A DNA stretch of 64,000 bases, taken from Isoetes taiwanensis (taxonomy: Eukaryota; Streptophyta; Lycopodiopsida; Isoetales; Isoetaceae). Shown here one piece after another: positions 12,936-37,063 of this stretch. Each line of letters begins with the position of its first letter. Position 1 is the stretch's first letter. Below the pieces are notes generated by a model. It saw nothing but the letters and a program-made list of their open reading frames with translations. It searched no databases and had not been told where the DNA came from. The DNA lies in NCBI GenBank assembly GCA_021234155.1, contig JAJEKV010000056.1, positions 2,959,330-3,023,329 on the forward strand. Reading direction: 5' to 3'. The position numbers and the translations under genes were made by a program.

Positions 12936-12954
12936 GAAGTCCTATCATCATGCC

Positions 12955-18372: not shown

Positions 18373-18744
18373 ACACACTTCGGGGGATGCTGCACCAGGC
18401 TATGCTATGACGAACGATGCTCGAAACGGGGTTTCGAGCGCGTATATGAGTGTTCAGGTGCTAGAGTCAGGAAAAGGGGCCTAGGGTTAGGGTTTGAGCC
18501 AATATAGGTTAGGGTCCACATGGGATGCTACGTGGCACCAATAGGATGGGGCCGTGTGGCGGTTGCCCAATAGGATAAGGCCATGTGGAAATGGGCCTTA
18601 TCCTAAGGTTATCTAAGTTAAACAATTAACTTAGATATGTGCCCCTTGCCACTTCTAAGGTATACAAGGCTACATGTGTAGACTTGTATAGTGAGGGTCC
18701 AGGAATATATGTATTTATGGCATATATTCCCCTAGAACGTCACA
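18373..18744 (-). repeat. Chromovirus 3' LTR, truncated
   Basis: Matches 50361-50733 at about 97% by eye (about a dozen substitutions in 372 bases). Read on -, it starts TGTGACGTTC at 18744 directly after a polypurine tract, as a 3' LTR should. Only the first ~370 bases of the ~1.6-kb LTR remain; the rest is lost at 18372. Confidence 0.88.
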
Positions 18745-20910: not shown

Positions 20911-22760
20911 TTAACTTCCTTACACCTGATGATTCGGGCACACACAACTTGTCTTTATGGTACAACAGGTTGCCTTCCTTCTTATAATGTTTGAAGGCTT
21001 CCCGTTCCTTATCTGTTCTAGCCTCCTTAGAGAGGCTTGCCCATACTTCCTTGAAATCACTATCAGATGGCAATGTCTCCTCAATTTTCTTGCCATATCC
21101 ACTCGAAAGGGTTGATATAGCATTACAATGTGTTCTCGTCTCAAGGGGTCTTCTAGAGAGAGCATCAGCAACCCCATTCAACTTACCCGGCTTATAAGCA
21201 ATCTCGAAATTATACTCTTCGAGGGATTCCATCCACCTCCTTTGCCTTAGATTGAGGAATGGTTGGGTAAAGATGTATTGGAGGCTCTGGTGATCAGTAT
21301 CTAACTGAAATTTCCTTCCAAGCAAATAATGCCTCCAAATACGAAGAGCTCTCACAATAGCTAGAAGTTCCTGATCATGGGTTGGATAACGCTGCTCGGC
21401 GTCATCCAGCTTCTTAGAGTCATAGGCTACAACTCTTCCTTCTTGCATAAGGACTCCACCTGTTGTTATCTTACTTGCATCCGTTGCTACTAGCTCGTCC
21501 TTATCTGGATCCGGCAGGATTAGCACTGGTGCTGCTGTTAAGGCTTCCTTAAGCTTTTCAAATGAAGCTTGAACATTTTCTAGCCAATGTGTTCTCCAAT
21601 CTTTCACTTTAACGCTCTTAGTGAGGTCCGTCAAGGGGAACGCCTACTTAGCGAAGTCCTTTATGAACTTCCTATAGTATCCTGCCAGACCTAGAAAGCT
21701 CCTCACTTCTGCCACATTCTTTGGAGCTGGCCAATCAACTACTGCTTCAATCTTTGCGGGGTCGGTGGAGATCCCTTCTGCTGATATCACGTGGCCTAGA
21801 TACTCCACTCTTTCGGTAGCAAAGTGGCATTTAGAGAGCTTCCCATACAACCGATGCCGTCTCAACTTTTCCAACACTCTTCTCAAATGCTGAAAATGAT
21901 CTTCAATGGACTTGCTGTAGACTAGAATGTCGTCGAAGAAAACAATGACAAACTCATCTAAGAACTCTCTGAAGATGTCGTTCACGAGACGCATGAAAGT
22001 TGTCGGGGCATTCGATAAGCCAAAGGGCATTACCGTAAACTCAAAGTGCCCATACCGCGTTCTGAAGGCGGTCTTATGGATATCTTCTTCCTTTATCCTT
22101 ATTTGATGGTAGCCTGACCTTAAGTCAATCTTAGAAAAAACCTTCGCTCCTTGGAGCTGATCCATCAAATCATCTGCTCTTGGCAGAGAAACTTATTCTT
22201 TATTGTCTGCTTGTTAAGATGGCGATAATCTATGCACATTCTTAGGCTCCCGTATTTCTTCTTCACGAAGAGTATGGGTGCTCCAATTGGAGACACGCTT
22301 GCTCTAATAAATCCAAGGTCAAGCAATTCCTGTAGCTGCTTCTTGAGCTCAATCAACTCCAGGGTGCTCATTCTATAAGGTGCCTTGCTGGTAGGCTTAG
22401 CATCTGGAGCTAATGTGATTTCACACTCTACACCCCTATAAGGTGGTAGCTGACGGATTTGATCTGAAAATACATCATTGAACTCCCTAATAAGCCTTGC
22501 TACTGGCTTGGGCAACTGATTTCCACTTAAGTCACTTCCCTTCTCTTTAGCTGGTTCAATTGCCTCTAACCTCAGGATATAATCCACCTTATTTCTTTCT
22601 ATACTTTTCCTTAGCTGCTTTATAGAAATGCACTGCATGGGAGAAGCTACCTTCTTACCTTTTACTATGAATCTGTTGCCGTCTGGCGCCGTCATGGAGA
22701 TCTCGTTGCACTCACAGTCGATCATTGCTTTAGCTGGCTTAAGGAACTCCATTCCTACTA
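20911..22760 (-). pseudogene. Chromovirus reverse transcriptase and RNase H, frameshifted
   Basis: RT begins near 22420 ([20 protein letters not shown]) with [13 protein letters not shown] and [12 protein letters not shown], continues in a second frame from 22168 with [23 protein letters not shown] and the catalytic [11 protein letters not shown] (about 21930-21900), and ends with [15 protein letters not shown] (21660). RNase H follows from 21634: VATDASKITTGGVL and the DHQSLQYIFTQ block. Single frame breaks lie at about 22165 and 21640. The order matches Ty3/Gypsy. Confidence 0.92.
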
Positions 22761-24333
22761 TAAGGTCATACTTTCCAAAATCCATGACCTCTGCCCCCAT
22801 CGGCCACTTGCTTCCACTAAGGTCTATGTCAAATGTGATCCTCCTTCCCTTATGTGGCGAATGGCACCACTTGCCATGCTAACTGGTCTTGGCTTAGACT
22901 TCAAAACTTTATTCTTCATTAGGGCAGCAAGCCTAGAAGAGGCAAAGTTGTGAGAGCTACCTGTATCTATCAAGACTAGATATGGACTGCTATTTATGAT
23001 TCCCTCAGCCGCAATAACTGTGGACTGATTTTCAACATCACCTGACTCAATAGCTGCACAAATATGGCACTCACCATCTATGAAATCTTGGGCTTCCTGC
23101 TGGTCGTCCTCTTCGTCGTCTCCTTCGGTTGGTGACTCCCAATCTGCAAGCTCTGCCAAAGCTGCTTGCATGACAAATGGGCAGTCGTGCGTTCGATGCT
23201 CTGGCTGGAAGCACCTAAAGTATAACTTCTTTTCAATGCATTCCTGCCTCTTTTCCTTTGGCAGGCTGTCTAGAAGATGCTTGAGCGCACTGCCCCCTGA
23301 TCCATTTTGTGGTCTACAGTCCCCAAAGGGCTTTCCCTGAACTTTCCCTTGATGTTGGCCTCCGGATGGCGTAGTTGCTGATTGCTTATTCTGATACTGC
23401 CCTTGATACTGCCCTGTTGTTTTACCCTTGAATGGTAACTGCTTCTGGCCTGGAGTAACTGGTGCGTCTTCTAAACTTAGGGCTTTGTCCTCGGCTTCTA
23501 CGACTGTCCTTGGGTTGATTGCTCGAACTAATTTTCTGATGCTGCTGTTCAACCCTTCAATGTATCCGTCTACCGCTTGCCTTTCCGAGATTCCGGGAAC
23601 ATTGAGGTTGAGCCGCATGAATTCCTCTGTGTACTTAGCTACTGATAGGTTCCCCCTGGTCTAGCCTATAGAATTGCTGGATCTGCCTGCTAGTATGTGA
23701 TCTTGGCACATAGTGTTTTCGAAAGGCCTTGCTGAAGGTCTTGAATCTGCAACTGTTTCTTTTCAGCTTATTGGACTTCACGTAGCCCTTCCACCAAATT
23801 CTGGCTGCTCCTATTAAGTTTGCTGTAGCAACCTTCCCTATGTCTTTGTCCTTCATGCTATAAGAATTTCCAAACTCTTCCATCTCATCAAGCCAAGCTT
23901 CTGCCTCCATGCCTGACCTGTCCTTCCCTGAAAACTGACCCAACTTCCTAGTCTTCCATACATTGCTCATAGCGCTATCAACTTTCTTCTGATAGTCATC
24001 TGTCTTCCTTGCCCTGGCTCTTACCTGTGATGTGTCGGACTCACTCTCTGAGCTCGAACTATCCTGGCTGTCAGAAGTGTCTGATGTGCTGGAGCTAGAT
24101 GGTGTTGGGGTCCTTCTGGTTCTCCTTTTTCTCTTCCTATCCCTGACATTTCTCTGATTGTCTTCCCCTTCTGGTTGTGGAGCCTCCTCAATGCCTTGCT
24201 GAGGTAATGGTGGTGGAGGTGGTGGTGCAGGTCCATATTCCTGGGCGTTCATCAATGGGGTGGCCCAGTGAATCAGCGGGTGCATCTGGTTCCTCATTTG
24301 GGTGAGCCTTGCGTTAACTGTCTCCACCGTCAA
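22761..24333 (-). pseudogene. Chromovirus gag and protease
   Basis: Gag runs from 24333 on -: a proline-rich start, an S/E-rich stretch (24130-24030), then GQFSGKDRSGMEAEAWLDEM and the IWWKGY core, broken near 23640, and continuing in another frame through the EGLNSSIRKLVR region. A degenerate CCHC knuckle (CFQPEHRTHDCPF) is near 23200. The protease follows with VLIDTGSSHNF (about 22965), the D-T-G active site. One break lies at 22820. The gag start may be upstream of 24333 because the leader is interrupted near 24440. Confidence 0.88.
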
Positions 24334-24643
24334 TTCTTCATTATTATCGTCTTCTTCACGCCCAAATAAGTTTCTAGGTACCCATTGGTGATGCCGGCCC
24401 TGGCCTTGAGAACCTGAGCCTGTGTTCCTGGCTGCAAGTATTAGTCATCAATACTGTTACTTAAGTTATATTATTCATCCTTATTTACAAGTGAGTTATT
24501 GTTGAACATAAAAGAAATCATGTCAAAATTGCACTTATAAGTTAAGGACAATTTATAGTCATTAATATATAAAAGTTACACGTTAATATAAAATACGTGA
24601 TAGTATATAGAAGTGAAGAGATTTAGTACAATTTAGAAGATAA

Positions 24644-25195
24644 TTAAAAACAGAATTTGTTTATCTTCGATGGCCCTTCGTCAACTTGAAGAAATTCTTG
24701 ACGTCCCTCAAGCCGAAGGCCTTTGCCGAGGTTGCGCAAGATGTTCCTGGAAGATCCCCCTTCGAGTGGTCGAGCCATTTCAGGCGCCGGGAGTTCTGGT
24801 GCCGTTGTCCCTACTACCGTCAATGTTGCGTCCCTGAGGTGGCCTCTGGCGAAGTCGAGGCAGTGGAGTGCCACGGATCTCTTGAAGAGGATGACGTGAT
24901 CCGTTACGGGGTCTAATTTGGCATGCTGCCTGAAGCCAGAAATTGCTATGAGGAGTGCCACCGACTCTTCTCCCCGCGGGCTGAACTCCTTGTGGAAGGC
25001 TATCATCTGCCCTTGGCTGAGGGCTGGGAGATAGTACCGGAGTGCCTTACCCTTCCTTATGGCCTTCGAGCCTGTGCCCCTTCTCTGAGCTGCTTCGCCG
25101 TAGACGTCTAACGCCAAGAGGTCTTCATGGTCCCTCCACATGCTAGTTGCGCTCTCCAGGTTGATGCTACTGGATGCCTCCCGCATACTCCTCAT
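24644..25195 (-). pseudogene. C-terminal part of the cassette-B acidic protein (probable)
   Basis: An open frame of about 183 codons that begins at the edge of cassette A, so its apparent start is probably not a real start. It has a faint pattern match to the C-terminal extension of the cassette-A acidic protein (29219-29617): a D-x-x-G/S block, a basic run, LRYYLPAL against LLRYISRF, then MIAFHKEF against IIVFSQNF. I infer it is the tail of the gene at 33671-34672, cut off by insertion of A. I know no family for it. Confidence 0.45.
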
Positions 25196-25224
25196 TAGGG
25201 CAGATTTGGGGTCTCAAAATGGCC
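25194..25224 (+). repeat. Cassette A left terminal inverted repeat
   Basis: Starts ATTAGGGCAGATTTGGGG and ends with AAAATGGCC. It pairs with 33645-33675 with one mismatch (A against G at the ninth base). Confidence 0.75.
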
Positions 25225-25882
25225 CATATCTTGGGTTAAAGATTTCCACGTCAGATTCGCCAGGACCAATCAGGTTTGCGCCTTTTTTACGAAAGTCAGT
25301 ATTACTTGGCAGGTAGAAGGATGAGCAGGCTTACTTGGCATCCACATGGCGTATTTTCATAGGGGATGCCTGCGCTTTTATTGCAACCATTTTAATGGCC
25401 CATTTTTTTTCGGAGTCGCCATGCCAAAATAATGGTGACTTTGACCGCCCCTTGTCGGCGTCAACCAACTCCCTTGTCAAATTTTGGCGCCAAACTTCAG
25501 ATCTTGTCACTCCAAATACTCACGTGCATCCTCTCCGCCTTCACTCCTCATCCGCAATCCATGTCTCCTGTAATTTACGTGTTCTTGCCCCATTTACATA
25601 ACTCCCAAGGTGAAGAAGTGGGGGTTTTGTCTCAATAGGTTAGGTGGGTGAGTATGCCTTTGCCATCAACGAGGGGCGAGCATAGAGTTAAGCGACAAAG
25701 GCGATCGGGCGTCGGACACATTGGATAGGTAGGATAAAAGAGTTCAAGTTGAATTCTAGCGGCCGGAAAGTGGAAAGTATAACAATACGACATGCCTATA
25801 CCCCTTTTGATATGGCCAAAGAGCTAATCTCCACCAAAAACAGCTTCCCAAAATTGCCCGCAAATGGTAACCACCTTAATCG
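25225..25882. other. Non-coding end region of cassette A
   Basis: No convincing gene on either strand. It contains CACGTCA/CACGTGC words and ends at the first family-A inverted repeat. Confidence 0.5.
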
Positions 25883-25949
25883 GATCACATGACGCGAAGC
25901 TATCTGTCAGCTACTTAACTGCGTAGAGATAGTTTCGCGTCGTGTGATC
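25883..25949. repeat. Family-A intergenic inverted repeat 1
   Basis: Arms 25883-25905 and 25927-25949 (23 bases, 21-base loop) pair fully if two G-T wobbles are allowed. The arm core is GATCACATGACGCGAA against TTTCGCGTCGTGTGATC. It lies 310 bp before the 202-residue gene. Confidence 0.85.
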
Positions 25950-26258
25950 TCCTTATCTTTTCATTTCTTTCGTTGACACGTGTTTACAAACAAATCTATT
26001 GTGCAGGCTTATGTTTATCAGACGTCGTGGATGTCATTCCGGTCGAAAGTATTAGTAGTGTACTTGTCGTGTATCACATAGACATCGGAATTGTCCTTTT
26101 CCAAGGTATGGATCTTGGTGACCTTGCGGGGGTATAGGCATCCGGTTTTATGGACATGATTATAACGTAAAGGTCGTGAAACCCGAGCTTGAGGCCGTTG
26201 AATTGCCCCTTTAAGTGAACTTTGTAAGCCACAGACTAATGAGAACAATGTAATTGCA

Positions 26259-26867
26259 ATGAAGAAATGCATGGCTGATGAGGTGCAAGCGGGAATGTCT
26301 GAAAACGGAGGCGTGAGGATGAGTTTCAAAATCTTCACACCGTTTGAGGTATTTGCTAACATATTCCAGATGGTGCAGGAAGTTCGAAAAGCTCCGAAGA
26401 CATATACGTGCTTTCTCCCCCCTGCCGATTTTGTGGATGGCTTATTTTTTGTTCCGACCTGGGATGTTCGATTCCACGAATCATCCGGTCAACTAACAGA
26501 GGTCCGCGTAGTTAAGTCCTCCTTTAAGTTCAGATACTTTCTTCCAAAACAATATTTATACGTTAATTGTCGACTAGAACGAAGGAAACAGAAAAAGAGA
26601 GGTTGCACAACTTTTTGGGAGCCGTTTGAGGACCATAACAGACACTCCGATGCGGTGGATATTCGAGTATGGCGAGGGGAGGAAGTCATTTATATAGCCA
26701 CCATGGAAAGCGAATGGCCATTATCAGAGCTAAGAGTGCTAATGGAGACAGAGGAGATTGCTAACGGCTTCCATTATTTCATTGATGGCATTAGGGTTGG
26801 TTACAGGCAAGAGGGAAATGTAAAGATTAGTGAGTTCGCGATCAACAAGAAATTGTCTGTCGCCTAG
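26259..26867 (+). CDS. Unrecognised 202-residue protein of cassette A
   Basis: An intact frame from ATG at 26259 to a stop at 26867; other in-frame Met codons at residues 5 and 13 could also start it. I do not recognise a family. The middle is rich in aromatic and basic residues (VRFHESS, FKFRYFLPKQYLY, then RLERRKQKKR), and the last ~70 residues alternate short hydrophobic runs with acidic turns and end in GFHYFIDGIRVGYRQEGN. That end loosely resembles small beta-grasp domains, but this is only an impression. No signal peptide or membrane helix is seen. No counterpart is visible in cassette B. It is the first gene of the + strand set in A. Confidence 0.55.
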   Translation: MKKCMADEVQAGMSENGGVRMSFKIFTPFEVFANIFQMVQEVRKAPKTYTCFLPPADFVDGLFFVPTWDVRFHESSGQLTEVRVVKSSFKFRYFLPKQYLYVNCRLERRKQKKRGCTTFWEPFEDHNRHSDAVDIRVWRGEEVIYIATMESEWPLSELRVLMETEEIANGFHYFIDGIRVGYRQEGNVKISEFAINKKLSVA

Positions 26868-27078
26868 CGCTTTGAATCTCGGTTTTTTATTTGTGTTTTT
26901 GTCCGATGTTTTTTTAGGGTTCCGTATTTTGTCCGATATTTTTTTTAGGGTTCCGTACAATTATTTAAAAAAGTTACCATCATATTTTACTTTAACTTCT
27001 GTTTTTTACTATTTATCTCTTGCCAGTTGTCTATTTTTGTCAGTGTTCGTAGTATAAAGCGCCATCCGCTGAGAAGCC
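26868..27078 (+). other. Intergenic region with a 30-bp direct repeat
   Basis: Two tandem copies of a ~30-bp unit with TTTGTCCGAT, a T run and AGGGTTCCGTA lie at about 26898-26957. A TATAAA word is at 27053-27058, only 21 bp before the H3-like ATG, too close for a normal TATA box. Confidence 0.5.
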
Positions 27079-27955
27079 ATGGCAAGAACTAAGCAAACTG
27101 CAAGGATCCATCCAGGTGGTATAAGGCCAGATGATTACATTAGTCCGCCTCCTTCATCTGAATCTGAAGTCTCTGATAGAGATTCTTCTCCTCTGACCAT
27201 GCCTAACAGAAGACCCGGAAAAGAAATCCGCATGACAGACGGCGGGAGAAGCAGCTCCGGAGTAAGTAGGGAGGTGCACTCTCTTGAGATCGAGGATGAA
27301 AATGTGAGAGACCGGGCGAGTAGAATATGATGCGGATTAATTATTGGGCAGCCGCCTCTTCTGTTTCTCTTATCTGCTCCTCCTGCCCTCCCGTTGAGGC
27401 CCCGTGACCTTCAAATCAAAGGAGGAGGCCCAACGCCCGAAAAGGGGAAGGCGACCGTAAAATGAGGAGATCTGGGCCGGAAGAGTCGGCCGAGCAACAG
27501 CCCCAAGCAAATGCCGGGGTGAGGAGATCGCCGAAAGAGTCGGCCGAGCAAATTTTCCAAATGCCGGGGTGGGTGAGGGTAGTGGCCTGGAAGCGGAAGA
27601 CGGCTCCTGCATTAAAGAGCCAGCGAGATTAAGAAGTATCGAAGAGCAATCGAGATGGTCATTCCACGTCTCCCATTTGCCAGGCTCGTGAAAGAGATTC
27701 TGCAAGAGTGTGGTGCGATACATCATACCAGTTCAGAATTCAAGCAACTGCCTTAAATGCTCTTCAAATGGCTTCGAAGCAAGTTGGTGTCGGTCTGTTC
27801 GAGGACTCGCACTTTGCAGCAATACATGCCAAGCGAGTGGTGTCATGCCCAAGGACATGCGCCTGGTCTTACGCATAAGGGATCCCGAGTACTATGGTCA
27901 AAATTTTATGGCTGAATACAACAAGAAGAAAGACCCCCCAGAAAAAAGGCCGTGA
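27079..27955 (+). pseudogene. Histone-H3-like protein with inserted charged region (cassette A copy)
   Basis: The first eight residues after Met are ARTKQTAR, identical to the H3 tail (R2, T3, K4, R8 present). An S/P/E/D-rich stretch follows to a stop at 27330, then a region with a duplicated ~57-bp unit (RRSGPEESAEQ and RRSPKESAEQ, 27461-27580), then an H3-type fold in shifted frames: WKRKTAPALK, SEIKKYRRAIEM, IPRLPFARLVKEI (alphaN/alpha1), ALNALQMASKQVGVGLFED and AIHAKRV (alpha2), MPKDMRLVLRIRD (alpha3). A 20-odd residue tail rich in K/P/E follows. At least three one-base frame changes plus the early stop mean it is a pseudogene, unless some are assembly errors or introns. Normal H3 is 136 residues; this would be about 290. 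CENH3 also has ARTK and a long tail, but the LFED/AIHAKRV/MPKD core is more H3-like. Confidence 0.8.
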
Positions 27956-28091
27956 AGTGCCTTTGTGTTTTTTTCATATGTATAATATTCTTTAATGTAA
28001 TGGCTTTATAAGCTTAATCTCTTAGTCCATTTCTTTCTTAGAAGCCTAGGTTCGCACTTTGTATTTTTTTTTTTTAAATGTTATACGTGAG

Positions 28092-28158
28092 GATCACACG
28101 ACGCGCAGCAAGCATTGTGCTTTTTTGTTGCACATAGTAGTTTTCGCGTCGTGTGATC
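28092..28158. repeat. Family-A intergenic inverted repeat 2
   Basis: Arms GATCACACGACGCG (28092-28105) and CGCGTCGTGTGATC (28145-28158) are perfect complements. The gap also has a weaker inner pair (GCATTGTGC with GCACATAGT). It lies between the H3-like and acidic genes. Confidence 0.85.
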
Positions 28159-28159
28159 C

Positions 28160-28179
28160 AACCCTAACCCTAACCCTAA
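28160..28179 (+). repeat. Short telomere-like run
   Basis: Three CCCTAA units followed by CCCTAAA, directly after inverted repeat 2. Too short to be a telomere; see findings. Confidence 0.6.
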
Positions 28180-28306
28180 AATGTACGGACAAATCTCCCC
28201 ACAACGACTGTGTCCCCTTTCATAATCGACAACGGCTACTTGAGTTCGGTGACCATGCCGCTTTACCGCTCCTAAACATCTTCTTGCTTTCGTCGTCTGC
28301 TTCGCC

Positions 28307-29617
28307 ATGGATTGTTATGTGAAGTTCCTGGAATGGTATGCATCCGCCCCACATGACAACGAGGAAGTTGCGCTGACTACGATTTATCCGTTCTATTGCA
28401 AGGAGTTGGACATCATGGCAAACAGTAGCGAGCTTGGATGCTATCGCGAGGTTGCTTTAGCTTTCACCCGGACCGCTTGGTCTCAGCGCACGTCCTTTGC
28501 AGATGTCCCTGGCTCGTGGATTCCAAAACCAGCTCTAGAGGAGGCGGCTTCCCATTTGCAAACAGTGAAGATGTTTTTCAAGAATGCTGCGCAACGGGCT
28601 CCTCCTGGCTGCGTCCTTGTACTTAAGAAGGTATCTTATTTCTCTTTGCCGTTTGCATTTGCTAGTTATTGTATTCTACTCGGCCAAACCGAAGATACAC
28701 TGGAAACAATGAAATCTTTAAGCCAAGGGGGGTCAGTTATGTGTGATGATGCTGACTATGACGTAGAAATGGAGATAGATATACAAGAAGAAGAGCAAGA
28801 ATGTAGGAGTTTTAGCTTCGACGCAATGGCCTTGGGTGAACCAGAGGAGGAAGATGATTCTGAAGGTGATGAGGATGAGGATGAGGATGAAAAGAAGTTG
28901 TCTGACATAACGCCAATTTTAGTGGAAGGCAAAGAATACCTATTGCTAAGTGATATACCGAGGAACCCGTCTTTGTTACAAATGTGTGCTAGGGAAGACG
29001 AGCTTATCAGTACCTTGGCCGAATGGGTAAACCTAGGCCTAGATTTTGAAGAGGATTTGGACAAAGAGATGTTTGAAGTGTCTTCTTATACCGGCAATGC
29101 TATAAAGCTTAAAGAAGCCTATGAGAGGCTGGAGTCTCGATTTGCTCAAGAGGAGGCGAATCTACCAACGGAAGAAGAATTCCAAATCTGGTGCAAAGCG
29201 CCAACAGGGATCTGAGGTTTGGCAGGCCCTTCAGTCAATCGCCGCAGCATAAGCCTCATAGATGAGAAGAAATGTGAAGAAGATAAGCTTGAGGGTTCTT
29301 ATTTGTGGGAAGTAGATGATTTTTCTTGCCGACATGCACGCGGGGGACAGGAAAGATTGAAGGACTCTACATTGTTACGATATATCTCAAGATTCGTTAA
29401 TGTGGAGATAATCGTCTTCAGCCAGAACTTTCAAATCCAAAAGGTGCGAGTTTGTCTATTACATCCGTGCATTATGCATGTTCGGGAACCATTCCCAATT
29501 GGCATCAAACACCGAAAGGGTGATAGCAATTCGGGGGATGTTGTGCTACAATATTTTGACGACCAAGCGGTCTGCATGCGAAAGCAATATGTTAAATTTT
29601 TAGTCAGGCGGGCTTGA
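28307..29617 (+). CDS. Acidic protein of cassette A, with in-frame TGA at 29213
   Basis: ATG at 28307 opens 302 codons to a TGA at 29213-29215; the same frame is then open to 29617, so the gene was probably ~436 residues, or is read through. Order: an N-terminal domain beginning MDCYVKFLEWYASAP, a run of about 25 mostly acidic residues (residues 183-206), a block ITPILVEGKEYLLLSDI, a helix-rich block with SSYTGN and YERLESRFAQEE, TEEEFQIW, then a tail with LLRYISRF and IIVFSQNF. A homologue with the same order lies on - in cassette B (33671-34672). I know no named family; the acidic run next to an H3-like gene makes a histone-chaperone role worth testing, but that is a guess. Confidence 0.65.
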
Positions 29618-29743
29618 CTCACCCAAGGTTGGAAGTCAATCGATAACATGGAAGTCATTGCCTTGTTGGATCGGTCTGGCGATTGAAAGAGCATGAAATT
29701 GACGACGAAGCTTGAAAAATTGGAAGTTATATATTTTCCAACT

Positions 29744-29985
29744 TGTATCGGTAAAATTATTTATGTATAGATTGTATTACCGAAATTACTAATACAAATT
29801 ATTTTATTTGTATTTATTCACATCACGCGAAATACATCAATCTGATTTTCTGTCATATCTAGGTTTTTGCGTCGTGTGATATTTCTCTCGAAGAAATGAA
29901 ATATTATTGGAAAAAAACAATTAATTTATTTATTCCTCATATGACGCGAGAAGCAACTCGTGTGACTCAAGCTACTACGAAATCT
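29744..29985 (+). promoter_or_regulatory. Intergenic module, first copy, with family-A inverted repeats
   Basis: Contains GGTAAAATTATTTATGTATA, CCGAAATTA, a degenerate family-A inverted repeat (about 29822-29880, right arm GCGTCGTGTGAT), a second half-repeat (GACGCGAGAAG to CTCGTGTGACTC, 29942-29969) and GACTCAAGCTACTAC. The same series occurs at 30696-30900, so the module was duplicated along with the gene after it. Confidence 0.65.
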
Positions 29986-29989
29986 ATGT

Positions 29990-29997
29990 TATAAATA
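29990..29997 (+). promoter_or_regulatory. TATA box before coiled-coil gene 1
   Basis: TATAAATA 88 bp before the ATG at 30085, a normal position for a Pol II core promoter with a ~60-bp leader. Confidence 0.6.
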
Positions 29998-30084
29998 GAA
30001 GACCTATGTCTACTCTGACCTCCGATCGCCTTCCGCCTTCTGCTCATCTTCTGCTCCAGTTTCCGCCTTCCACCTTCTGCTCCG

Positions 30085-30462
30085 ATGGCATCATCATCTT
30101 CCTCTAGCAAGCGACCACGCCAAGATAGCACTCCCCATTGCCCAGAGCTGCCCGTGGACATCACCCTTGCAGTGGTGATGAAGAGATTCAAGGAGATCCA
30201 TGATGAAAACAACCGTCTCGTCGCCGAGAATATGGAGGCGGTCGACAGATTAGCCTTCACAAGGGCGCTGCTGCATGAGCGAGACATTGAGCTCGCGGAA
30301 ACATTCGCCATGTACCAAGAGGCGACGAGCCGCAGGGCCGAGGCAGTTGAAACTGCTCACAGTATTTCGCAGGCCTTAGAAGATATGGAGAAGAAGCTCC
30401 GAGCTGCAGGGGATGAGAACGCAGCCTTACGGCTTCATCTGCAGGACCATGAAAATCAGTAG
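30085..30462 (+). CDS. Small coiled-coil protein 1 of cassette A
   Basis: An intact frame of 125 residues. A serine run (MASSSSSSKRPRQD) with a short basic patch is followed by about 95 residues of charged alpha helix with heptad-like spacing (FKEIHDENNRLVAENMEA, then ERDIELAETF, EDMEKKLRAAGDENAALR), typical of a parallel coiled coil. A TATA box lies 88 bp upstream. It is paralogous to the gene at 31272: same serine start, same K/E-I...E/A-E register and AFxRxxLxxRDxxxA block. No known family is recognised; the basic patch could be a nuclear signal. Confidence 0.65.
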   Translation: MASSSSSSKRPRQDSTPHCPELPVDITLAVVMKRFKEIHDENNRLVAENMEAVDRLAFTRALLHERDIELAETFAMYQEATSRRAEAVETAHSISQALEDMEKKLRAAGDENAALRLHLQDHENQ

Positions 30463-30580
30463 AGGATCATGAAGATCCCTAGCCGTTGTATCTATCTATT
30501 TTTTGCTTCAAAGAAAAGTTTTCTCTATTTTTTGCTTCTATCTATCCTCTTGTTCCAATGTATGTTCTGTTTTATTAAAA

Positions 30581-30647
30581 GATCACACGACGCGAAATGC
30601 CTTGCTTGCAATTAGGTAGCAATCAATGGATTTCGCGTCGTGTGATC
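30581..30647. repeat. Family-A intergenic inverted repeat 3 (perfect)
   Basis: Arms GATCACACGACGCGAAAT (30581-30598) and its exact complement at 30630-30647, 31-base spacer. The best-preserved member, about 120 bp after the stop of coiled-coil gene 1. Confidence 0.9.
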
Positions 30648-30695
30648 TCCATGCCGTTCTATTTTGCTTCAATGAGAAGTTCTATCTTTAGTTAT

Positions 30696-30900
30696 GTATC
30701 AGTAAAATTACTTATGTATAGATTATATCACCGAAATTATCAATAAAAATTATCACACGAGCTTTCGCGTCGTGTGATATTTCTCTGGAAGAAAAGACGC
30801 GAGAAGAAATAACGGTCCTTTTTCCTCACACGACGCGAGAAGTAACGGTCCATTTTCTTGACCGACGGCATCCTTCGCGTCGTGTGACTCAAGCTACTAC
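30696..30900 (+). promoter_or_regulatory. Intergenic module, second copy, with two family-A inverted repeats
   Basis: A repeat of the 29744-29985 module. It holds a short perfect hairpin (TATCACACGA at 30751-30760 with TCGTGTGATA at 30770-30779) and a longer one (TCACACGACGCGA at 30826-30838 with TCGCGTCGTGTGA at 30875-30887, with an inner AACGGTC/GACCG pair), then GACTCAAGCTACTAC. Confidence 0.7.
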
Positions 30901-31173
30901 CCAAAGCACCCAAAGCACGTGGCATGTGGATGACAATGTCTATTCACATACGTGGCATGTGGATGACAACGTCATGCCAAGGACGTGGCATGCGCTGCCA
31001 CAATAACACTGTCTTTTGTACGGCCTGTATATAGTACGGCTAGGATATGACGGATCCCATGATGCGAACATAGGCTACCGTTGCCTAATTGCATGCTATA
31101 ATTTCGCCTCGTAGGATTATTACACAACTTTATCGGTACTCGCAACCGTAGATTCCAACGTACCTCTAGTTTC
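30901..31173 (+). promoter_or_regulatory. Upstream region of coiled-coil gene 2
   Basis: Two direct copies of ACGTGGCATGTGGATGACAA (about 30918 and 30951) and a third partial ACGTGGCATG lie here; CACGTGG is a plant G-box type word. A decayed family-A inverted repeat is at 31052-31117, with CATGATGCG where others have CACGACGCG. Confidence 0.5.
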
Positions 31174-31182
31174 TATATAAAA
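31174..31182 (+). promoter_or_regulatory. TATA box before coiled-coil gene 2
   Basis: TATATAAAA, 90-98 bp before the ATG at 31272, the same spacing as for coiled-coil gene 1. Confidence 0.6.
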
Positions 31183-31271
31183 CGTCGGAGGCCTTTGTCT
31201 TCTCCTATTCGCCATCTCCTGTTCTGCCACATCCGCCCTCAGCCATCTCTCTTGTCCTCCCATCACTTTCA

Positions 31272-31577
31272 ATGGCCTCCAGCTCCAGTTCCATCCCTGC
31301 CGAGATCTTGTCTCAAGTTCTGGTCAAGGAAATTAAGAACATTCGTGCTGAAGCGGAGGAATGGATCCGCCTTCTAAAAGAAAAGAATGATGAAGACGTC
31401 GCCAAGCTGGTTGCGGCAGAGGACAAGGCCGCCTTCTATAGGGAGGTGATTTTAGTGCGCGACAATCAGCGGGCTGCCTTAGACCGCGAATTGCGCGCCA
31501 CGAGATATAACTTCCAAGAGAGGCTTAGGGCCGCAATCGAAGCGGGAGAGGCTGCCCGACTCGGGATGTCAGTTTGA
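31272..31577 (+). CDS. Small coiled-coil protein 2 of cassette A, probably 3'-truncated
   Basis: An intact frame of 101 residues starting MASSSSS, then a continuous charged helix (EIKNIRAEAEEWIRLLKEK, KLVAAEDKAAFYREV, RDNQRAALDRELRATR). It is a paralogue of the gene at 30085 but about 24 residues shorter at the C terminus. Its last 112 bases overlap the 3' end of the convergent gene on -, and no inverted repeat separates them, unlike other gene borders in A. I infer that a deletion joined the two genes and removed both ends. Confidence 0.6.
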   Translation: MASSSSSIPAEILSQVLVKEIKNIRAEAEEWIRLLKEKNDEDVAKLVAAEDKAAFYREVILVRDNQRAALDRELRATRYNFQERLRAAIEAGEAARLGMSV

Positions 31578-32997
31578 TTGAACACCCATTTCAATACCTC
31601 GTGGGTTTCTTTCTGAACTTTAAAGAGACCTAACCACCAGGTGTCATCTTCAGATTGACATGAGAACCATTTTTCGGCACGCTTCTTCTCCTCGTCCGTC
31701 ACCTCTACATCTTTTTTATTATTCTTGTTGCTCTTTGATTTAGCATGTGCAATTGCATTCTCAATTGCTCTATTCATGATGACAACGGATACCCTCTCAT
31801 ACTTCTCAAACTTGGTCAGTTCCATTTCATCCAATTTTATGCAAACTTCAATCTCACCATTAGTTTCTGCAACTGTTAAGTCATAATATTTGACAAGGAA
31901 TTGTAAGAAAGTAAGCAGGTCAACCCAAAGATTATTGCGTTCATTCATTCCAACTATATCACAACAATCCTTGCCATTCTTATCTTTTATGGCTATGGCA
32001 GGACCAGCACATTCAACGTGGTGCATCTCTCCTAATATGGCATACACCATCTTTGTCCTAGTAACCCTTGTATTCTCGACAATTTGTGGAAGTGGAGCGA
32101 ATACTTTTTTTGTGCCCATTCTTTTCAACGCTTCGTGGAATGGCTTGAATAGAGAACGGTAACCAAGCCTACTGATGCCTACATCATCACAAACAGTCTG
32201 TACATCTGACGCTTCTAACTTCTTGTAGATCTCTCCTAGTAGAGAAGAGTTGTAGGGCTGACAAATCATGTCCACTATCTCCTTGTTTGTCGCTAGGTTC
32301 TTCACTACGTAACCAAGATTGCTTCTAGTTTCCCCAGATCTTAATTGGCCTTTGCTAGTGTTGTAAACGGACCTTGTGGCCGTGACCCTGCGTCTGAATG
32401 CACCTGATCCAAACTTCAGTTCCTCTATCGGTCGAAAGTGCTTCTTCCTTTCTCGCAAGCCAAGGGGTGTTTTCTTCAAATTCTTTAACCTACATTGAAG
32501 CCCAAAGTTTGCTCTTTCGAGCTCTTGGATCTTTTCTTGCAGCTGCCCTATCACCAATTTGGACTTGTCCACTTCGTATCTCAAAGAAGTTTCCCTCCCC
32601 AAGCCGTCATTCCTTTCCTTCATTACAGTAGAGAAAAAAGAGCTGCTGGTTTAAGTTATAATTCTCTTGTGACAATCGGAAGCAGCTCATCTCAAGGAAC
32701 TGTATTCGATTCCGAATGCCTTCATCCTCTCTCACAATATCCCAAGAGGCCAGAGTTACAATCACCACAAAATCGGACTAAACTTGAAACGTCCCGAAAT
32801 GACAGTTTCTTGCCACTCAACGGATCCAATGGATATAAACTGCCATCCGCCCAGATGTCGACACTTTTTGAGCCTGCAAGACGCAACACGTCGAGGTCTA
32901 AGTTCTTATTTTTTAGACCTCCTTTTTTGCGATTGAAGACTGGAGCATATTCGTGAGTCAGTTGGATCCTTATCCACACATCATTTGGAGCTTCCAT
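31466..32997 (-). pseudogene. Unrecognised ~510-residue protein of cassette A, two frameshifts
   Basis: Likely start at 32997 (MEAPNDVWIRIQLTHEY), just inside an inverted repeat. The first block has DIWADGSLYPLDPLSGK and a possible zinc site (CGDCNSGLLGYC, about 32765-32730). One-base frame changes near 32727 and in a T run near 32642 lead into a coiled coil (LQEKIQELERANFGLQ) and then a long globular part, open from 32623 to 31466, with VFAPLPQIVENTRVTR, ILGEMHHVECAGPAIAI and EVCIKLDEMELTKFEKYERV. The last ~37 codons overlap the coiled-coil gene on + and may not be original. The family is unknown to me; acidic residues in the IKLDEMEL stretch could belong to a nuclease-like fold, but that is speculative. 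It is the best candidate for an enzyme in A. Confidence 0.5.
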
Positions 32998-33004
32998 ACT
33001 GCGT

Positions 33005-33071
33005 GGATCGCACGGCGCGAAATGAAGGTGTACAATTTGTATGGCCCAGCACAATTTGCTTCGTGTGAGCC
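33005..33071. repeat. Family-A inverted repeat, decayed, before the - gene
   Basis: GGATCGCACGGCGCGAAA at 33005-33022 faces TTTGCTTCGTGTGAGCC at 33055-33071, with several mismatches. It ends 8 bp from the proposed start of the ~510-residue gene. Confidence 0.55.
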
Positions 33072-33644
33072 GAACGTCCGTACTAACCTCGTTTTTGAAA
33101 TTTGCAACGTGCATATGGAAATCGAAAAGTCCATTCTCCTACAATCCATGCTTTTATACATTAAGCAAATTCAAAATTCGAATTGTAGGGGGGGCGGGAA
33201 GCCTGTATTGGGATGAAGTAAAGATCCCGGTTTACAAACTTTTAAGGTGCAATCGCGGTGCCTCGAAACGAAAGTCTGATACAAAGCTTCAACCTACACA
33301 TTCAAATTTTGAAATATAGAAGGCGGGAAGCTTGTATGACCATGGCCTCTAAATGAAAATAGCGCAAGACAAGAATCGGGGATGCGCATGCTTGGTATCT
33401 GACAAACCAAGAGACACCGTCATGAGTTGCCGGTATGCTATAATGCAAGTGGCTTTTTAGAAGCGCCACGTGTTGCATCAATCTGTCTGACAACCAACAG
33501 AATTAAATACATATGGCGCCATAAATGTGCGATCCCCCTTATTCCGGGAGAATATTCCAAGCAAATCTGTAATTATGAGAGTTTGGTATCCTAGGTGGCA
33601 TGGGAAAAAAGGAGCGGAAATATGACGTGGAATGGCTGATAGGA
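33072..33644. other. Non-coding right end region of cassette A
   Basis: No supported gene. Two copies of a GGCGGGAAGC word occur at about 33190 and 33323. Confidence 0.45.
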
Positions 33645-33675
33645 GGCCATTTTGAGACCCCAAATCCGCCCTAAT
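33645..33675 (-). repeat. Cassette A right terminal inverted repeat
   Basis: Reverse complement of 25194-25224 with one mismatch. The TAG inside it (33671-33673) stops the cassette-B acidic frame, which is what an insertion into that gene would do. Confidence 0.75.
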
Positions 33676-34672
33676 GGGAACGAACCGTTCGGCTAGAGCT
33701 TGGGCCTCTTCCTGGTTTGTACAATCTGCTCTGTATTTGTTGAAACTCCTCCTCTGGGATGATTGGCTCCTGTTGACGATACATCTCCCTTATCCGTTCA
33801 TAGGCCGCTATATTTGACATTGTCTCCCCGGCGTATGAGTGTTGTTCCGCTAGCTCCTTTGGAATTTCTTGATAGGAGTAGTCGATAAAGTCGTTGTGCT
33901 GCTCTTTCGCCATCAACCCTAAGAGCTCGTCGATTTGGAGCCCTTCTTCTTGGCAGTAAGGAAGGTTGAGGATGTCGTTCGCCAAGATGTAATCCTCTCC
34001 ATCGATGACTATTGGTGACAGGGCTGTGATGCCAATTGGTGGTTCATAGGCCCGCTTGATTTCGTCATCATGCCTGGCTATTAGCCTCTCCATCCTCATC
34101 GCCTCTCTGCTTTCCCAATCTGGATTTTCTTCCCCTAGCTGCTCGTAGTCTTGCTCGATCTGCAGTGCTGGTGTCCCTGATGTCATGCCATGGTACTCGT
34201 ACTCCGAGGACTCGATCTCATGGATGTGGCTCTGCTCCCTTCAAGTGTCGAGTGGCGCTAGATCCAAAGGCTGAATTGAGGGCTTCCCCACCTTGTTGAT
34301 TGCCTTATACTGCATGAATAGAGCGAGGGCTACATGGGCTGATAGATATATATGCCTATTATGCTTGCAGGTCATGTAGTCGGGCATGGTTCGTGTTCTA
34401 TCCCACAGCTTGCTCTTGCCCTTGGATCCTCCCCCTACGGCTTGGCTAAGCGAATCTAGGGATACCCATTTCCCTCCCCTAGGCGGTAAGCTAACTTCCC
34501 AGGGTAGGATCTGCTGGTCATATTGGCAAATGATGTCAGTGTAGAAAGGGGTTCTGGTCAATGTTGCATGGAGGTCAAAGAGATGGTCAAATACATGGAA
34601 AACTTGATCAGCAGGAAAATCACGAATGTGGTTGGCAGCATCATACCATCTGAGAAAACTACTGGGCGCCAT
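33671..34672 (-). pseudogene. Acidic-protein homologue of cassette B, interrupted by cassette A
   Basis: ATG at 34672 (MAPSSFLRWYDAANH) opens 143 codons to a TGA at 34243-34241; the same frame is then open to the TAG inside the A terminal repeat. The N-terminal domain corresponds to FLEWYASAP in the A copy. After the TGA come an acidic stretch (IEQDYEQLGEENPDWESRE), ALSPIVIDGEDYILANDI, HSYAGE and YERIREMYRQQE, then IPEEEFQQI, each matching the A copy in order. The long acidic run of A is much shorter here. The 3' part is probably at 24644-25195. A TATAAAAG box lies about 115 bp upstream. Confidence 0.75.
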
Positions 34673-34782
34673 TGGACAGAGGTAAGTGTAGAAAATGGCT
34701 TGGGAAGATTGATAAGAGCTTGAAAAATCGCCTAAAATGATAGGAGCAGTTCTGGTAAAGGGAAAATGGCAAATGAGGCCCC

Positions 34783-34790
34783 CTTTTATA
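34783..34790 (-). promoter_or_regulatory. TATA box of the cassette-B acidic gene
   Basis: On -, TATAAAAG about 110-118 bp before the ATG at 34672. Confidence 0.55.
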
Positions 34791-34967
34791 GACTATGGCC
34801 TGCCTCGAGTTTTGTGCACAAGGTTTCTTGATGGAATAGACTTTTGTTCTAAGGCTATGGATATCCAAATGAGCTATGAAGTGCAATTCTAAGCAAAACA
34901 AAGCAAGAAACACTACATGGCAGTTTGTTGGATCGAATTTGGTCAATCCTATCCAAAATGGGGCAAC

Positions 34968-35034
34968 CCGGGTCGATTCGCACAAATGAGGTCTGCGTTG
35001 CGAACGCAAGGTGGTTTTGCGCGGATCAACCCGG
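34968..35034. repeat. Family-B intergenic inverted repeat 1
   Basis: Arms CCGGGTCGATTCGCACAAA (34968-34986) and TTTGCGCGGATCAACCCGG (35016-35034), three mismatches, all C/T or A/G type. The loop holds a small palindrome, TGCGTTGCGAACGCA. Confidence 0.85.
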
Positions 35035-35169
35035 TTTGGCTGATTTGGAAGATGATTAGGCATTTCTAGGGGTTGTAAGCTACTAACATGACTATTTGGG
35101 TGGACCCTAACCTAGCTAGCAACTTGTTTCGAGCAAAATTGATATCTAAAATTGTCAAATTGGGCTAAT

Positions 35170-35222
35170 CGGGTTGATTCGCGCAATTTGGCCCTGCGGC
35201 GCGTTTTGCGCGGATCGACTCG
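35170..35222. repeat. Family-B intergenic inverted repeat 2
   Basis: Arms CGGGTTGATTCGCGCAA (35170-35186) and TTGCGCGGATCGACTCG (35206-35222), three transitions. Confidence 0.85.
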
Positions 35223-35356
35223 GTTTCGCCTGAACTTGGCATTTTTGATGATCCATTGCTGAAATTGACTTCTAAACTAGGTTCCTAGGCAAATTCTAAG
35301 CAATCTATTATCTTTTAGCACAAATTTTCAATCATTTTCGTCCCAAATCCTGGTAC

Positions 35357-35423
35357 CCGGGTTGATTCGCGCAAAAGCGCTCTGCGTTGCGAACGCAGGT
35401 CGAATTTGCGCGGATCGACCCGG
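35357..35423. repeat. Family-B intergenic inverted repeat 3
   Basis: Arms CCGGGTTGATTCGCGCAAA (35357-35375) and TTTGCGCGGATCGACCCGG (35405-35423), two T-for-C differences. Loop again carries CTGCGTTGCGAACGCAG. Confidence 0.88.
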
Positions 35424-35647
35424 TTTCGCCGATTTTTGAGCCAAAATTGATTTTCTTGTGCTGGAATCCATGCTACTTAACTTATTATAAGCATTCTAAG
35501 CATTATACGAAGAATTCTACGACAATTTAACTTAGTTACTTACATTTTCAAAGCATAATACACTCAAATTACAGAGTAAGGAGAACTTATATTTATGGAA
35601 AAGATTAAGTACATTGAAAAACTTATTCTAATTACAAACTTGAGGCT

Positions 35648-36809
35648 TCAGGGCCTCTCTTTGCGGATCCTCCACGCCAAGTGCAGGTCCTTGGGCATAA
35701 CGGTTACCTGCTTGGCGTGGATGGCGCAAAGGTTTCCCTCCTCAAAGAGCTGGATCAGCTCTGCTTCTCAGGCTTCTTGTAGGGCCCGGGTAGTTAGAGG
35801 GGTGACCCTGTAATCAGTCCGGAACTCCTGCATTACTTCGCGAAGGAGGTGTTCGAATGGCGCCTTCCTTATTAGGAGATTAGTGCACTGTTGAAAGTGC
35901 CTAATCTCCCTAAACACCCGAGCGTGCCGGGAGTTTGGCCCGTGATGGGTCTTCTTGGGCTTCTCCGGCCTAGGTGGTGGCGGCTTCGGCTGATTCTTCG
36001 GCCGCCCTCCCTTCACGAACTTCTCTACATTCTGCTTACAGTACCAATCATTATACCTCGTCCAGCGACGGAGGTACTCCTGGTACACCTTCATTCTTCG
36101 CTTGAATTCACGATCCTGATGGAGCGTGAATTCGCGCTCGCCCACCTTCTGCTTCTTCACTACCTTAGGTGGCTTGGGCCACTTAGGGTAGGGTGGGCGT
36201 ACGTTGGGGTCTGAAGTTTCCCCAACGTCTTGCTGCTCCTCCTCCTCTTCGTTCTCCTCCCCGTCTTCCTCCTCTTCATCTTCCTCCTCGTCCTTGCGTG
36301 GGCGAGGTTCTTCGATAGTGACCGTCCCACGAGGCCTATCCCTCCTCGCTTTCTTCCTCCGCTCCTTCTCCTTCAGCTCCCTCTCTCTTTTCTTCCTGGC
36401 CGCTGTTTCTTCGGGCCACTTTGCTACTTTATCCTTCCCCTTCTTCTTTTTGCTAGAAGAAGGTATTGCCTGCTAGTCCGGCTGGGGCTGGGTCTGATGC
36501 TGCTGCTGCCGCTACTGCTCCTCGATCTCCTCCTCCCGGCGCTCCCTCCTGATGCCCCACCTCCTAGTCGGATAGGTTGCCGACGTGAATAGTCTCGTCG
36601 GTCCGCTGGGTCTCCACCGACGACGAGCTGCTCTGTGGCTCCTCCTGTGAGGCGTGGAAAGTTTCGTCTGTCGAGGACGACTCCTCCTCCCCTGGTTTCG
36701 GCCGGAGGTGCTCTGGTACCTGCTTGCCATGGCCTCCCGCTGCTGCTGCCGCCATCGAGGGTGCGGTTCTTGGGCCAGGCTTCCTATAGGTTTATTCGGT
36801 CCTTGCCAT
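35648..36809 (-). pseudogene. Histone-H3-like protein with ~280-residue insertion (cassette B copy)
   Basis: Start at 36809 gives MART, E, then TAA where the A copy has the CAA of MARTKQT, then T-Y-R-K. An S/E-rich stretch (36755-36564), a Q-rich stretch with two TAG codons, a K-rich patch (SKKKKGKDK), an R/E/K helix, a long acidic run (about 36290-36225) and a proline-rich linker follow. The H3 fold comes at the end: VFREIRHFQQCTNLLIRK, PFEHLLREVMQEFRTD, TTRALQEA, TGA at 35770, then [37 protein letters not shown] and a stop at the same point as H3. One frame change lies near 36560. About 385 residues against 136 for H3. The fold is complete and better preserved than in copy A. A TATA-like word lies ~92 bp upstream. 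Confidence 0.85.
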
Positions 36810-36900
36810 ATTTTACGGTCTGAGAAATTGGTGACGTAAGGCTGATCAAGAGAGAGAGGGTGGTAGGCAAGGTTTGGGGGGAAATGAGGTGGCAAGAAGA

Positions 36901-36908
36901 TATTTAAA
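36901..36908 (-). promoter_or_regulatory. TATA-like box of the cassette-B H3-like gene
   Basis: TTTAAATA on -, about 92 bp before the ATG at 36809, like the 88-98 bp spacing in cassette A. Confidence 0.45.
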
Positions 36909-37063
36909 AAGGAAGGCGCTCTAGGGAATATTCCCTTACCATTAATAGGTCTAATAATTAGCCCCCCTATTAATGACTCCAATATACTTAATTATTAGTA
37001 TATACTTAATACAGTATTATATTAAAATTTCGAATTTTTCCTAATGGTCACTACAAAATTAAA

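Follow-up and report, generated by a model that had tools for sequence, protein, structure and literature searches.

The locus considered here raises the question of what a gene for a histone H3-like protein, found twice and both times followed by a second ('partner') gene, is doing in the mobile DNA of Isoetes taiwanensis. The window, which is the whole stretch of 64,000 nucleotides of contig JAJEKV010000056.1 that was analysed, is part of the same 1.66-Gb genome that was searched for further copies, and its surroundings are plant-like and rich in nested transposons. A preliminary description had taken two 'cassettes' at 24440–37048, A and B, for related versions of a single undescribed mobile element or endogenised virus-like unit. 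They are two different mobile elements, one within the other, and much the best explanation of the locus is a nested pair: an outer Ty3 chromodomain retrotransposon with long terminal repeats (LTRs), to which B belongs, and an inner DNA transposon with terminal inverted repeats (TIRs), A. Of the relatedness seen earlier, what stands is that both have an H3-like gene, partner genes that are homologous, and a common geometry of short inverted-repeat sites (dyads); the rest falls.

Organization of the locus

The outer element, a Ty3/chromovirus LTR retrotransposon, spans 18372–50734 on the minus strand, as placed by blastn to a complete copy (C1103), and is interrupted by A and by a CACTA-like insertion. 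Its 5' LTR (49136–50733, minus strand) is 86% identical to the LTR of C1103 and 96.8% identical over 374 bp to the window's own 3' LTR part (18372–18744, minus strand, also located by blastn to C1103), and the internal parts match C1103 in order. The gag, protease, reverse transcriptase, RNase H and integrase with its C-terminal chromodomain occupy 19620–24444 (minus strand), where Pfam identifies Retrotrans_gag, RVP_2, RVT_1, RT_RNaseH and Chromo (E 2.3e-11), with rve below its cut-off. The complete copy has LTRs at 1646–3290 and 12710–14340 that are 97.6% identical, an initiator methionine tRNA (iMet) primer site at 3292, a polypurine tract, and the 5-bp target site duplication (TSD) GGAAC on both sides. 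Between its 5' LTR and gag it carries an H3-like gene, with the frame shifted before the fold, and a partner gene of 547 aa; another copy, C930, has the same gene order. Cassette B (24440–37048 minus A) is identified by sequence as the 5' internal part of the Ty3 retrotransposon that has these gag-pol genes, and not as a second version of the cassette represented by A. A is inserted in B's partner gene, and B is itself retrotransposon sequence.

The same arrangement recurs across the genome. First-look searches gave 7567 H3-like, 6633 partner and 13026 gag candidates, and the best 150 of each, the closest matches only, were scored by script. In these lists a partner match lies 0.5–5 kb downstream on the same strand of 46 H3-like matches, and gag lies downstream of 42 partner matches, the reverse order being absent in both cases; the exceptions are one H3-like/partner pair on opposite strands and one H3-like match with gag upstream. 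H3-like, partner and gag all follow in order at no fewer than 17 loci in addition to the window, in which A widens the spacing. The single conserved host locus that would have marked them as ordinary host genes was not seen in these comparisons within the genome.

The inner element A (25193–33676, plus strand) is bounded by TIRs, as had been recognised, although each is 32 bp long and not 31 bp (left, CATTAGGGCAGATTTGGGGTCTCAAAATGGCC, 25193–25224, plus strand; right, 33645–33676, minus strand), and the arms are 97% complementary. A 27-bp core of the TIR has 1553 matches in the genome with up to two mismatches (774 and 779), compared with none for the reversed control. The uninterrupted copy C1103 provides an empty site, its bases 6518 and 6519 corresponding in blastn to window positions 33677 and 25192, and the partner-gene frame across this site (...SRTVRS/RSMREASSS...) continues as in other copies. 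A has inserted in B's partner gene without target duplication. Two further empty sites are weaker, in that the joined flanks of two other copies (L053 and L042) align across the junction at 75–77% identity to A-less sequence; the duplication is 0 bp in the one clean and the two weaker sites. A TA target duplication, to which the CAT-TA and TA-ATG flanks might point, was rejected because C1103 joins exactly outside CATTA...TAATG and the frame runs on. The term gene-bearing mobile element is apt for A, which is a TIR DNA transposon of many copies with several extra genes.

A gene pair common to both elements

An H3-like gene is present in both cassettes, as had been proposed, with a Pfam Histone match for B and readable H3-fold pieces for A, and in both it precedes the partner gene, each pair on its own strand (A on plus, B on minus). 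The retrotransposon H3-like protein is about 375 aa long and consists of an H3 tail start, a long extension and a complete H3 fold. The window copy (35648–36809, minus strand) begins MART..., has the long extension and the fold, and contains in-frame stops; Pfam Histone is matched at E 3.7e-10 for 35771–36094, and the fold is 87.9% identical to that of L065, one of four copies retrieved on account of their open frames. All four (L065–L068) have a full H3 fold after some 270 residues of acidic and basic stretches; L065 and L068 start MARTKQTARK, L066 starts MAQTKQTARK, and the start of L067 is out of frame. The L065 fold matches H3.2 in the PDB at E 1.6e-28 (residues 288–373 of 375) and Pfam Histone at E 7.5e-29 (100.9 bits against a cut-off of 26.4). 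Stop-free frames of 375 aa or longer are found in at least 26 of the best 150 H3-like rows.

The ratio of nonsynonymous to synonymous substitution rates (dN/dS, Nei-Gojobori) for the fold is 0.024–0.115 in 17 of 21 pairs among seven copies, with dS saturated in four and with codons that are stops (window and L064) skipped. Values for the whole H3-like protein are 0.155–0.191 (3 pairs), and those for the retrotransposon partner and gag are 0.125 and 0.092 (one pair each). Such pairwise values mix selection before and after insertion; decay alone would drive them towards 1. The H3 fold looks strongly constrained across the diverged retrotransposon copies, and because it is conserved more than the whole protein, assembly with other histones is suggested.

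The A-type H3-like gene (27079–27955, plus strand) starts MARTKQTARI and is frameshifted, so that it is read from a three-frame translation; a homologous stretch in a 10.7-kb copy of the same family (C1018) is open over the second half of the fold. The retrotransposon type is 62–66% identical to canonical H3 in the fold, and the A type, over 62–63 residues, is 57% identical to canonical H3 and 51–55% identical to the retrotransposon type. In the loop 1 region the retrotransposon type has no insert and the A type has four extra residues, a longer loop 1 being a CENH3 feature. A point against our explanation is that the two types are no closer to each other (51–55%) than they are to canonical H3 (57–66%), and for this reason the two H3-like genes may be separate captures.

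The retrotransposon partner gene encodes about 520–547 aa and in the window runs on the minus strand from 34672 to 33677 and then, beyond A, from 25192 to 24644. The first part (33677–34672) has one in-frame stop and pieces 78–80% identical to the 547-aa C1103 protein, and the second part (24644–25192), cut off by A, is 69% identical to C1103 and in the frame of the uninterrupted copies. The A-type partner gene (28307–29617, plus strand), which encodes an acidic protein and has one in-frame stop, is 31% identical to the retrotransposon partner over about 100 residues, with BLASTP E values of 5e-9 and 5e-11 and scores of 46.2 and 49.7 bits, compared with a maximum of 27.3 bits in 2 x 500 shuffles (blocks of 20). 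Profile comparison with hhalign gives a probability of 95.4% and E 1.8e-8, and the partner genes of A and B are homologous; the C-terminal piece of the A partner, after the stop, has no match to the retrotransposon partner. Since the partners are homologous, the H3-like/partner pair in the same order is, as judged from sequence, the main link between A and the retrotransposon. No Pfam family is above cut-off for the partner genes, a PDB search with the retrotransposon partner returned a single match at E 0.56, and a word-based search of 5.8 billion proteins with the A partner gave none at E <= 0.01 among 1862 candidates. By eye, TATA-like boxes are present upstream of the partner genes, and three telomere-like CCCTAA units lie at 28158–28180, beside the dyad upstream of A's partner; the translations of C458 and C320 suggest that such units are kept there too.

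Inverted-repeat sites between the genes

The observation that A and B have intergenic inverted-repeat families of their own is well supported, both families being far above expectation in the window. The A repeat, GATCACACGACGCGAAA, has 11 window matches with up to three mismatches where 0.06 are expected, and its 16-mer has 633 exact matches genome-wide compared with one for the control; the B repeat, GGGTTGATTCGCGCAA, has six window matches where 0.39 are expected. The A dyads are located within a putative intron of the gene ORF1 (25883–25949, 67 bp span), upstream of the partner gene (28092–28158, 67 bp span), at four positions with spans of 66–67 bp (29816–29881, 30581–30647, 30824–30889 and 31053–31118), and just upstream of the likely transposase start (33006–33070, 65 bp span). 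The retrotransposon has three dyads with CCGGGTYGATYCGCGCAA-like arms between its H3-like and partner genes (34968–35423), two of which span 67 bp and the middle one less.

Five A-family loci, searched with up to five mismatches in the arms and with spacers of 5–60 bp allowed, contain 39 dyads, every one of them with a spacer of 31–35 bp (32 bp in 20, 33 bp in 11, 31 bp in five, 35 bp in two doubtful cases, and 34 bp in one). Because many of these are one site in different copies, the independent set is A's own seven dyads, with spacers of 33, 33, 32, 33, 32, 32 and 31 bp; six of these spacers share only 9–45% mutual identity. The near-fixed spacing and free spacer sequence disfavour RNA hairpins and favour a protein complex on DNA, and a site of 65–67 bp would suit an (H3-H4)2 tetramer.

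In the retrotransposon copies, CCGGGTNGATCCGCGCAA-like arms with spans of 65–67 bp occur in the gap between the H3-like and partner genes in L062 (one), L064 (two) and the window (two of three); the L068 pair spans 55 bp, L066 has an AT-rich pair only, and L065 and L067 have none. That window-like dyads exceed the threshold in just four of seven copies, and are shorter in L068 and in the middle one of the window, counts against our explanation. Dyad pairs of all kinds number nine in the seven retrotransposon regions, compared with 1.12 in two-base-block shuffles. The dyads of A and of the retrotransposon differ in sequence and mostly span 65–67 bp in both.

The DNA transposon family and its transposase

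Comparison with its relatives shows that A derives by internal deletion from a 10.7-kb TIR DNA transposon; its length of 8484 bp is some 2.2 kb less than that of the C1018 copy, and the catalytic half of the transposase, beside the second coiled-coil gene, is missing. Further A-family copies were fetched mostly from the TIR match list, picked for two ends near each other, and measure about 0.57–0.59, 3.9–4.1, 8.0, 10.7 and 14.4 kb; this spread of sizes indicates that the family has many internally deleted forms. CATTA...TAATG bounds A and all but one of the 16 fetched copies that have both ends; the exception (L048) deviates at its right end. Three copies of 0.57–0.59 kb (L052, L053 and L054) are miniature derivatives with A's terminal repeats, and form a family like miniature inverted-repeat transposable elements.

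The C1018 copy has, from the left, the transposase on the plus strand, followed on the minus strand by coiled-coil protein 2, the partner, the H3-like gene and ORF1; another copy (C301) shows, within the part fetched, the transposase, the two coiled-coil genes and the partner in this order, interrupted by a copia insertion. In A, a C-terminal part of ORF1 (26259–26867, plus strand, 202 aa) is 42% identical to the matching part of L061:212–1078, and the complete protein is probably larger and encoded by an intron-containing gene. The putative intron was placed at 25692–26134 by eye from the frame of a divergent relative, and the dyad at 25883–25949 seems to lie inside it. ORF1 has no Pfam match and no convincing match in the PDB. 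A BAH domain suspected in ORF1 by eye was rejected, as L061:212–1078 has no Pfam match up to E 10, the PDB search returned no BAH protein, and the structure model has a predicted local distance difference test (pLDDT) score of 35. The gene for coiled-coil protein 1 (30085–30462, plus strand) is an open reading frame also present in C301, and that for coiled-coil protein 2 (31272–31577, plus strand) has lost its C-terminus at the deletion and is longer in C1018.

Although no transposase had been recognised at first, the minus-strand gene of about 510 aa is the N-terminal part of one (31583–32997, ends placed by hand from the alignment), its catalytic part being deleted; it is the same protein as in L059:1079–3085 and L055:1819–2988, and linked transposase genes are found in fuller A-family copies. 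The relative L070 has a transposase in a single open frame of 931 aa, to which the cores of L061 (594 aa) and L071 (885 aa) are 61% and 64% identical, respectively; L061 is 53% identical to A's own family. These relatives share the motif order D...D-x20-CxxC...LH...HxxxxH-x19-E, represented in L070 by D471, D576, C597/C600, H650, H810/H815 and E835 and in the same order in L061. This order is that of RAG1, as is the distance of 20 residues between the final H and E. According to PMC12730594, the motifs C(2)C and H(3-4)H occur throughout the clade of CMCT transposons. The dN/dS of L070 versus L071 is 0.089, which suggests constraint on the transposase family. L071 (C952:7635050–7637800) is otherwise open over its 885 aa and has V for the catalytic E (GMVKSHK), and is possibly a recently inactivated or repurposed copy.

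Database comparisons are consistent with this kinship. In PDB sequence searches to E 10, all 13 matches of the C301 transposase piece (E 0.34–1.5) and all nine of L061 (E 0.25–0.49) are to RAG1, around the catalytic glutamate; Pfam RAG1 is found for two C-terminal transposase pieces at E 0.16 and 0.019, both under the cut-off. Foldseek with a model of L061 gives 36 matches at E <= 0.001, comprising 35 RAG1 structures and one HzTransib, and the next is Hermes at E 0.03. The model is weak (mean pLDDT 46.5, predicted template modelling score 0.35; Foldseek template modelling score 0.2 and root-mean-square deviation about 20), so it is the local pattern of matches that counts and not the overall shape. 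Several other results also tell against the kinship: each RAG1 sequence match is non-significant alone, the D-D half of C301 by itself has zero PDB matches, Pfam scans of L061, L070 and L071 do not list RAG1, and profile searches A1 and A4 did not retrieve it. As points against the explanation of the locus more generally, the C1018 transposase is split over two frames, the long open frames being those of relatives, and the DNA-transposon genes of the young copies compared have dN/dS of 0.42–1.2 at dS of 0.02–0.09, with no clear selection. With its RAG1/Transib motifs and a weak model, A's transposase family appears to be of the RAG1/Transib type. Transib has a 5-bp TSD and its own termini; the A family, with a 0-bp duplication and the ends CATTAGGGC, lies outside Transib proper. 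Pfam scans of the transposases gave no hAT match, and NCBIfam a single weak and meaningless match for two of them. Two database proteins are 36–39% identical to the transposase and may lie outside this genome, and a protein database search with the truncated window copy found none at E <= 0.1 among 5537 candidates.

L061 and L069 (C1038:13349000–13361500) represent a divergent relative with the transposase and a longer ORF1 protein, for which a TIR search of C1038 found none convincing. No H3 fold was found in L061 by tblastn, and the H3-like/partner pair may therefore be a later gain in A's family.

The right edge of the region first described, at 37048, is not a cassette end, and a CACTA-like insertion starts at 37049 with CACTACAAAA and extends to 48846, the far end being inferred from the point where the retrotransposon resumes. 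It sits in the 5' untranslated region of the retrotransposon and includes several tandem repeats of ~1.1 kb between about 39 and 45 kb.

Possible roles of the H3-like proteins

Our proposal, which is tentative, is that the elements encode H3 chromatin that opposes silencing. The retrotransposon H3-like protein and its partner would probably be made from the element's own genes, and since the fold is kept under constraint, the retrotransposon probably uses the protein as a histone. The H3-like protein would be placed in chromatin on the element, with the partner protein as its chaperone or loader and the 65–67 bp dyads as the address for its deposition, and the host's H3-based silencing would thereby be kept from closing the element's promoters. 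The mechanism would be analogous to the sequence-specific anti-silencing of VANDAL/VANC, with a histone as the putative effector.

A second proposal, which we think rather unlikely, is that the H3-like protein is an aid to targeting, its tail (ARTKQTARK, with the K4 and K9 positions) being read by the retrotransposon's own chromodomain so as to tether integration complexes to chromatin containing the protein. Targeting through chromodomain–histone interactions is known in chromoviruses, the integrase here has a chromodomain, and ARTKQTARK is retained at the start of the retrotransposon H3-like tail. However, no chromodomain gene is recognised in the DNA transposon, the A-type tail has I at position 9, and the common partner gene and dyads are left unexplained. 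A broader form of the anti-silencing proposal, and a doubtful one, is a 'portable chromatin' module common to two unrelated element classes, made up of an H3 variant, a partner acting as chaperone or loader, and the 65–67 bp dyads as sites of two-fold symmetry; at these the H3 variant would form element-specific particles and promoters would be marked open, the DNA-transposon tail being without lysine 9.

The H3-like protein could instead be a histone mimic that soaks up host H3 methyltransferases or chaperones and so weakens silencing in trans, not being placed on the element itself. Histone mimicry occurs in other parasites, and the H3 tail start is retained at the N-terminus before the acidic and basic extension; the lower dN/dS of the fold than of the whole protein suggests that assembly with other histones matters, and makes a decoy improbable. 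Lower still is the chance that the genes are passengers, captured host H3 amplified with the element and without function for it. The window H3-like copies are indeed broken, and fungal hAT elements carry H3-like genes that, in the available parts of the two accounts, are interpreted as amplified host genes with no element benefit demonstrated (PMC3538342, PMC6710886), a precedent that also weighs against our own proposal. Three observations oppose the passenger explanation: the fold is under purifying selection in retrotransposon copies that have diverged, long open frames persist among the best-scoring rows, and an unrelated transposon has a homologous partner gene placed in the same order.

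An endogenised cassette from a large DNA virus, as first proposed, has next to no probability: histones and hairpins do occur in some giant viruses, but a partial RAG1/Transib-type transposase with TIRs explains A and full LTR-retrotransposon anatomy explains B, viral contigs scanned with either the transposase or the retrotransposon H3-like protein contained no relative, and PHROGs (viruses of bacteria and archaea only) gave one weak match (E 0.005), between a coiled-coil protein and a family without assigned function.

Relationships to known systems

Each element is of a familiar type with a novel cargo, and transposons that carry H3 are already on record from fungi. In a literature search mostly without subscription journals we found no retrotransposon and no plant transposon that carries a histone gene, and the word 'histone' is absent from a 2026 review of plant transposon gene capture (PMC13317346). 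As far as these searches go, three features are new: a retrotransposon that carries H3, partner genes that are homologous between two element classes, and the geometry of the dyads. Histones are usually seen as a property of the host; if our proposal is true, elements can provide the very material that receives the host's silencing marks, and the ability of a mobile element to build chromatin of its own becomes a testable question. The findings point to gene exchange between a retrotransposon and a DNA transposon, and suggest that mobile elements can come with chromatin components of their own.

The outer element resembles Ty3 chromoviruses in its LTRs, iMet primer site, polypurine tract, gag-pol order, integrase chromodomain and 5-bp TSD, and departs from them in having H3-like and partner genes with dyads between the 5' LTR and gag. 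Its H3-like protein has the tail start and complete fold of canonical H3 and H3 variants, and is unlike canonical H3 in the extension of about 270 aa between tail and fold and in being encoded by a retrotransposon. The A family is similar to the CMCT/RAG1-Transib-like transposons as described in the available part of PMC12730594, with CA...TG termini, RAG1-like Foldseek matches and C(2)C/[M/L]H/H(3-4)H motifs lying between the second D and the E of the DDE set, and differs in its several extra genes, including the H3-like gene, and in having no significant Pfam match. Because a duplication of 2–5 bp is stated there for the clade, the 0 bp in three empty sites is a departure from it, and the RAG1/Transib-like transposons would gain a gene-rich lineage that inserts without target duplication.

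The closest parallel to A's cargo is in fungi, where hAT elements of Pyrenophora tritici-repentis have 26 H3-like copies with little variation (PMC3538342) and those of Pseudocercospora fijiensis have hundreds of inactivated ones (PMC6710886). Like A, these are TIR DNA transposons that amplify an H3-like gene, and in P. tritici-repentis an open reading frame of unknown function adjoins it (PMC3538342). They have a hAT transposase, with an 8-bp TSD in P. fijiensis (PMC6710886), whereas A has one of RAG1/Transib type and no TSD; the available parts of these accounts mention no H3-carrying retrotransposon, no partner homologue in a second element class and no dyads (PMC3538342, PMC6710886).

Two other systems are comparable in their proposed working. 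TET/JBP dioxygenases are common to unrelated superfamilies of fungal DNA transposons and are interpreted as anti-silencing, likewise a chromatin gene in unrelated element classes; that account notes that none was found in a retrotransposon (PMC12730594), whereas here the genes are a histone-like gene and its partner and one carrier is a retrotransposon. VANDAL/VANC elements, in the available part of PMC5735166, share with those described here the element-specific short non-coding motifs that differ between related elements; their motifs are tandem repeats, whereas those of A and the retrotransposon are dyads of near-fixed spacing, and the putative effector is a histone.

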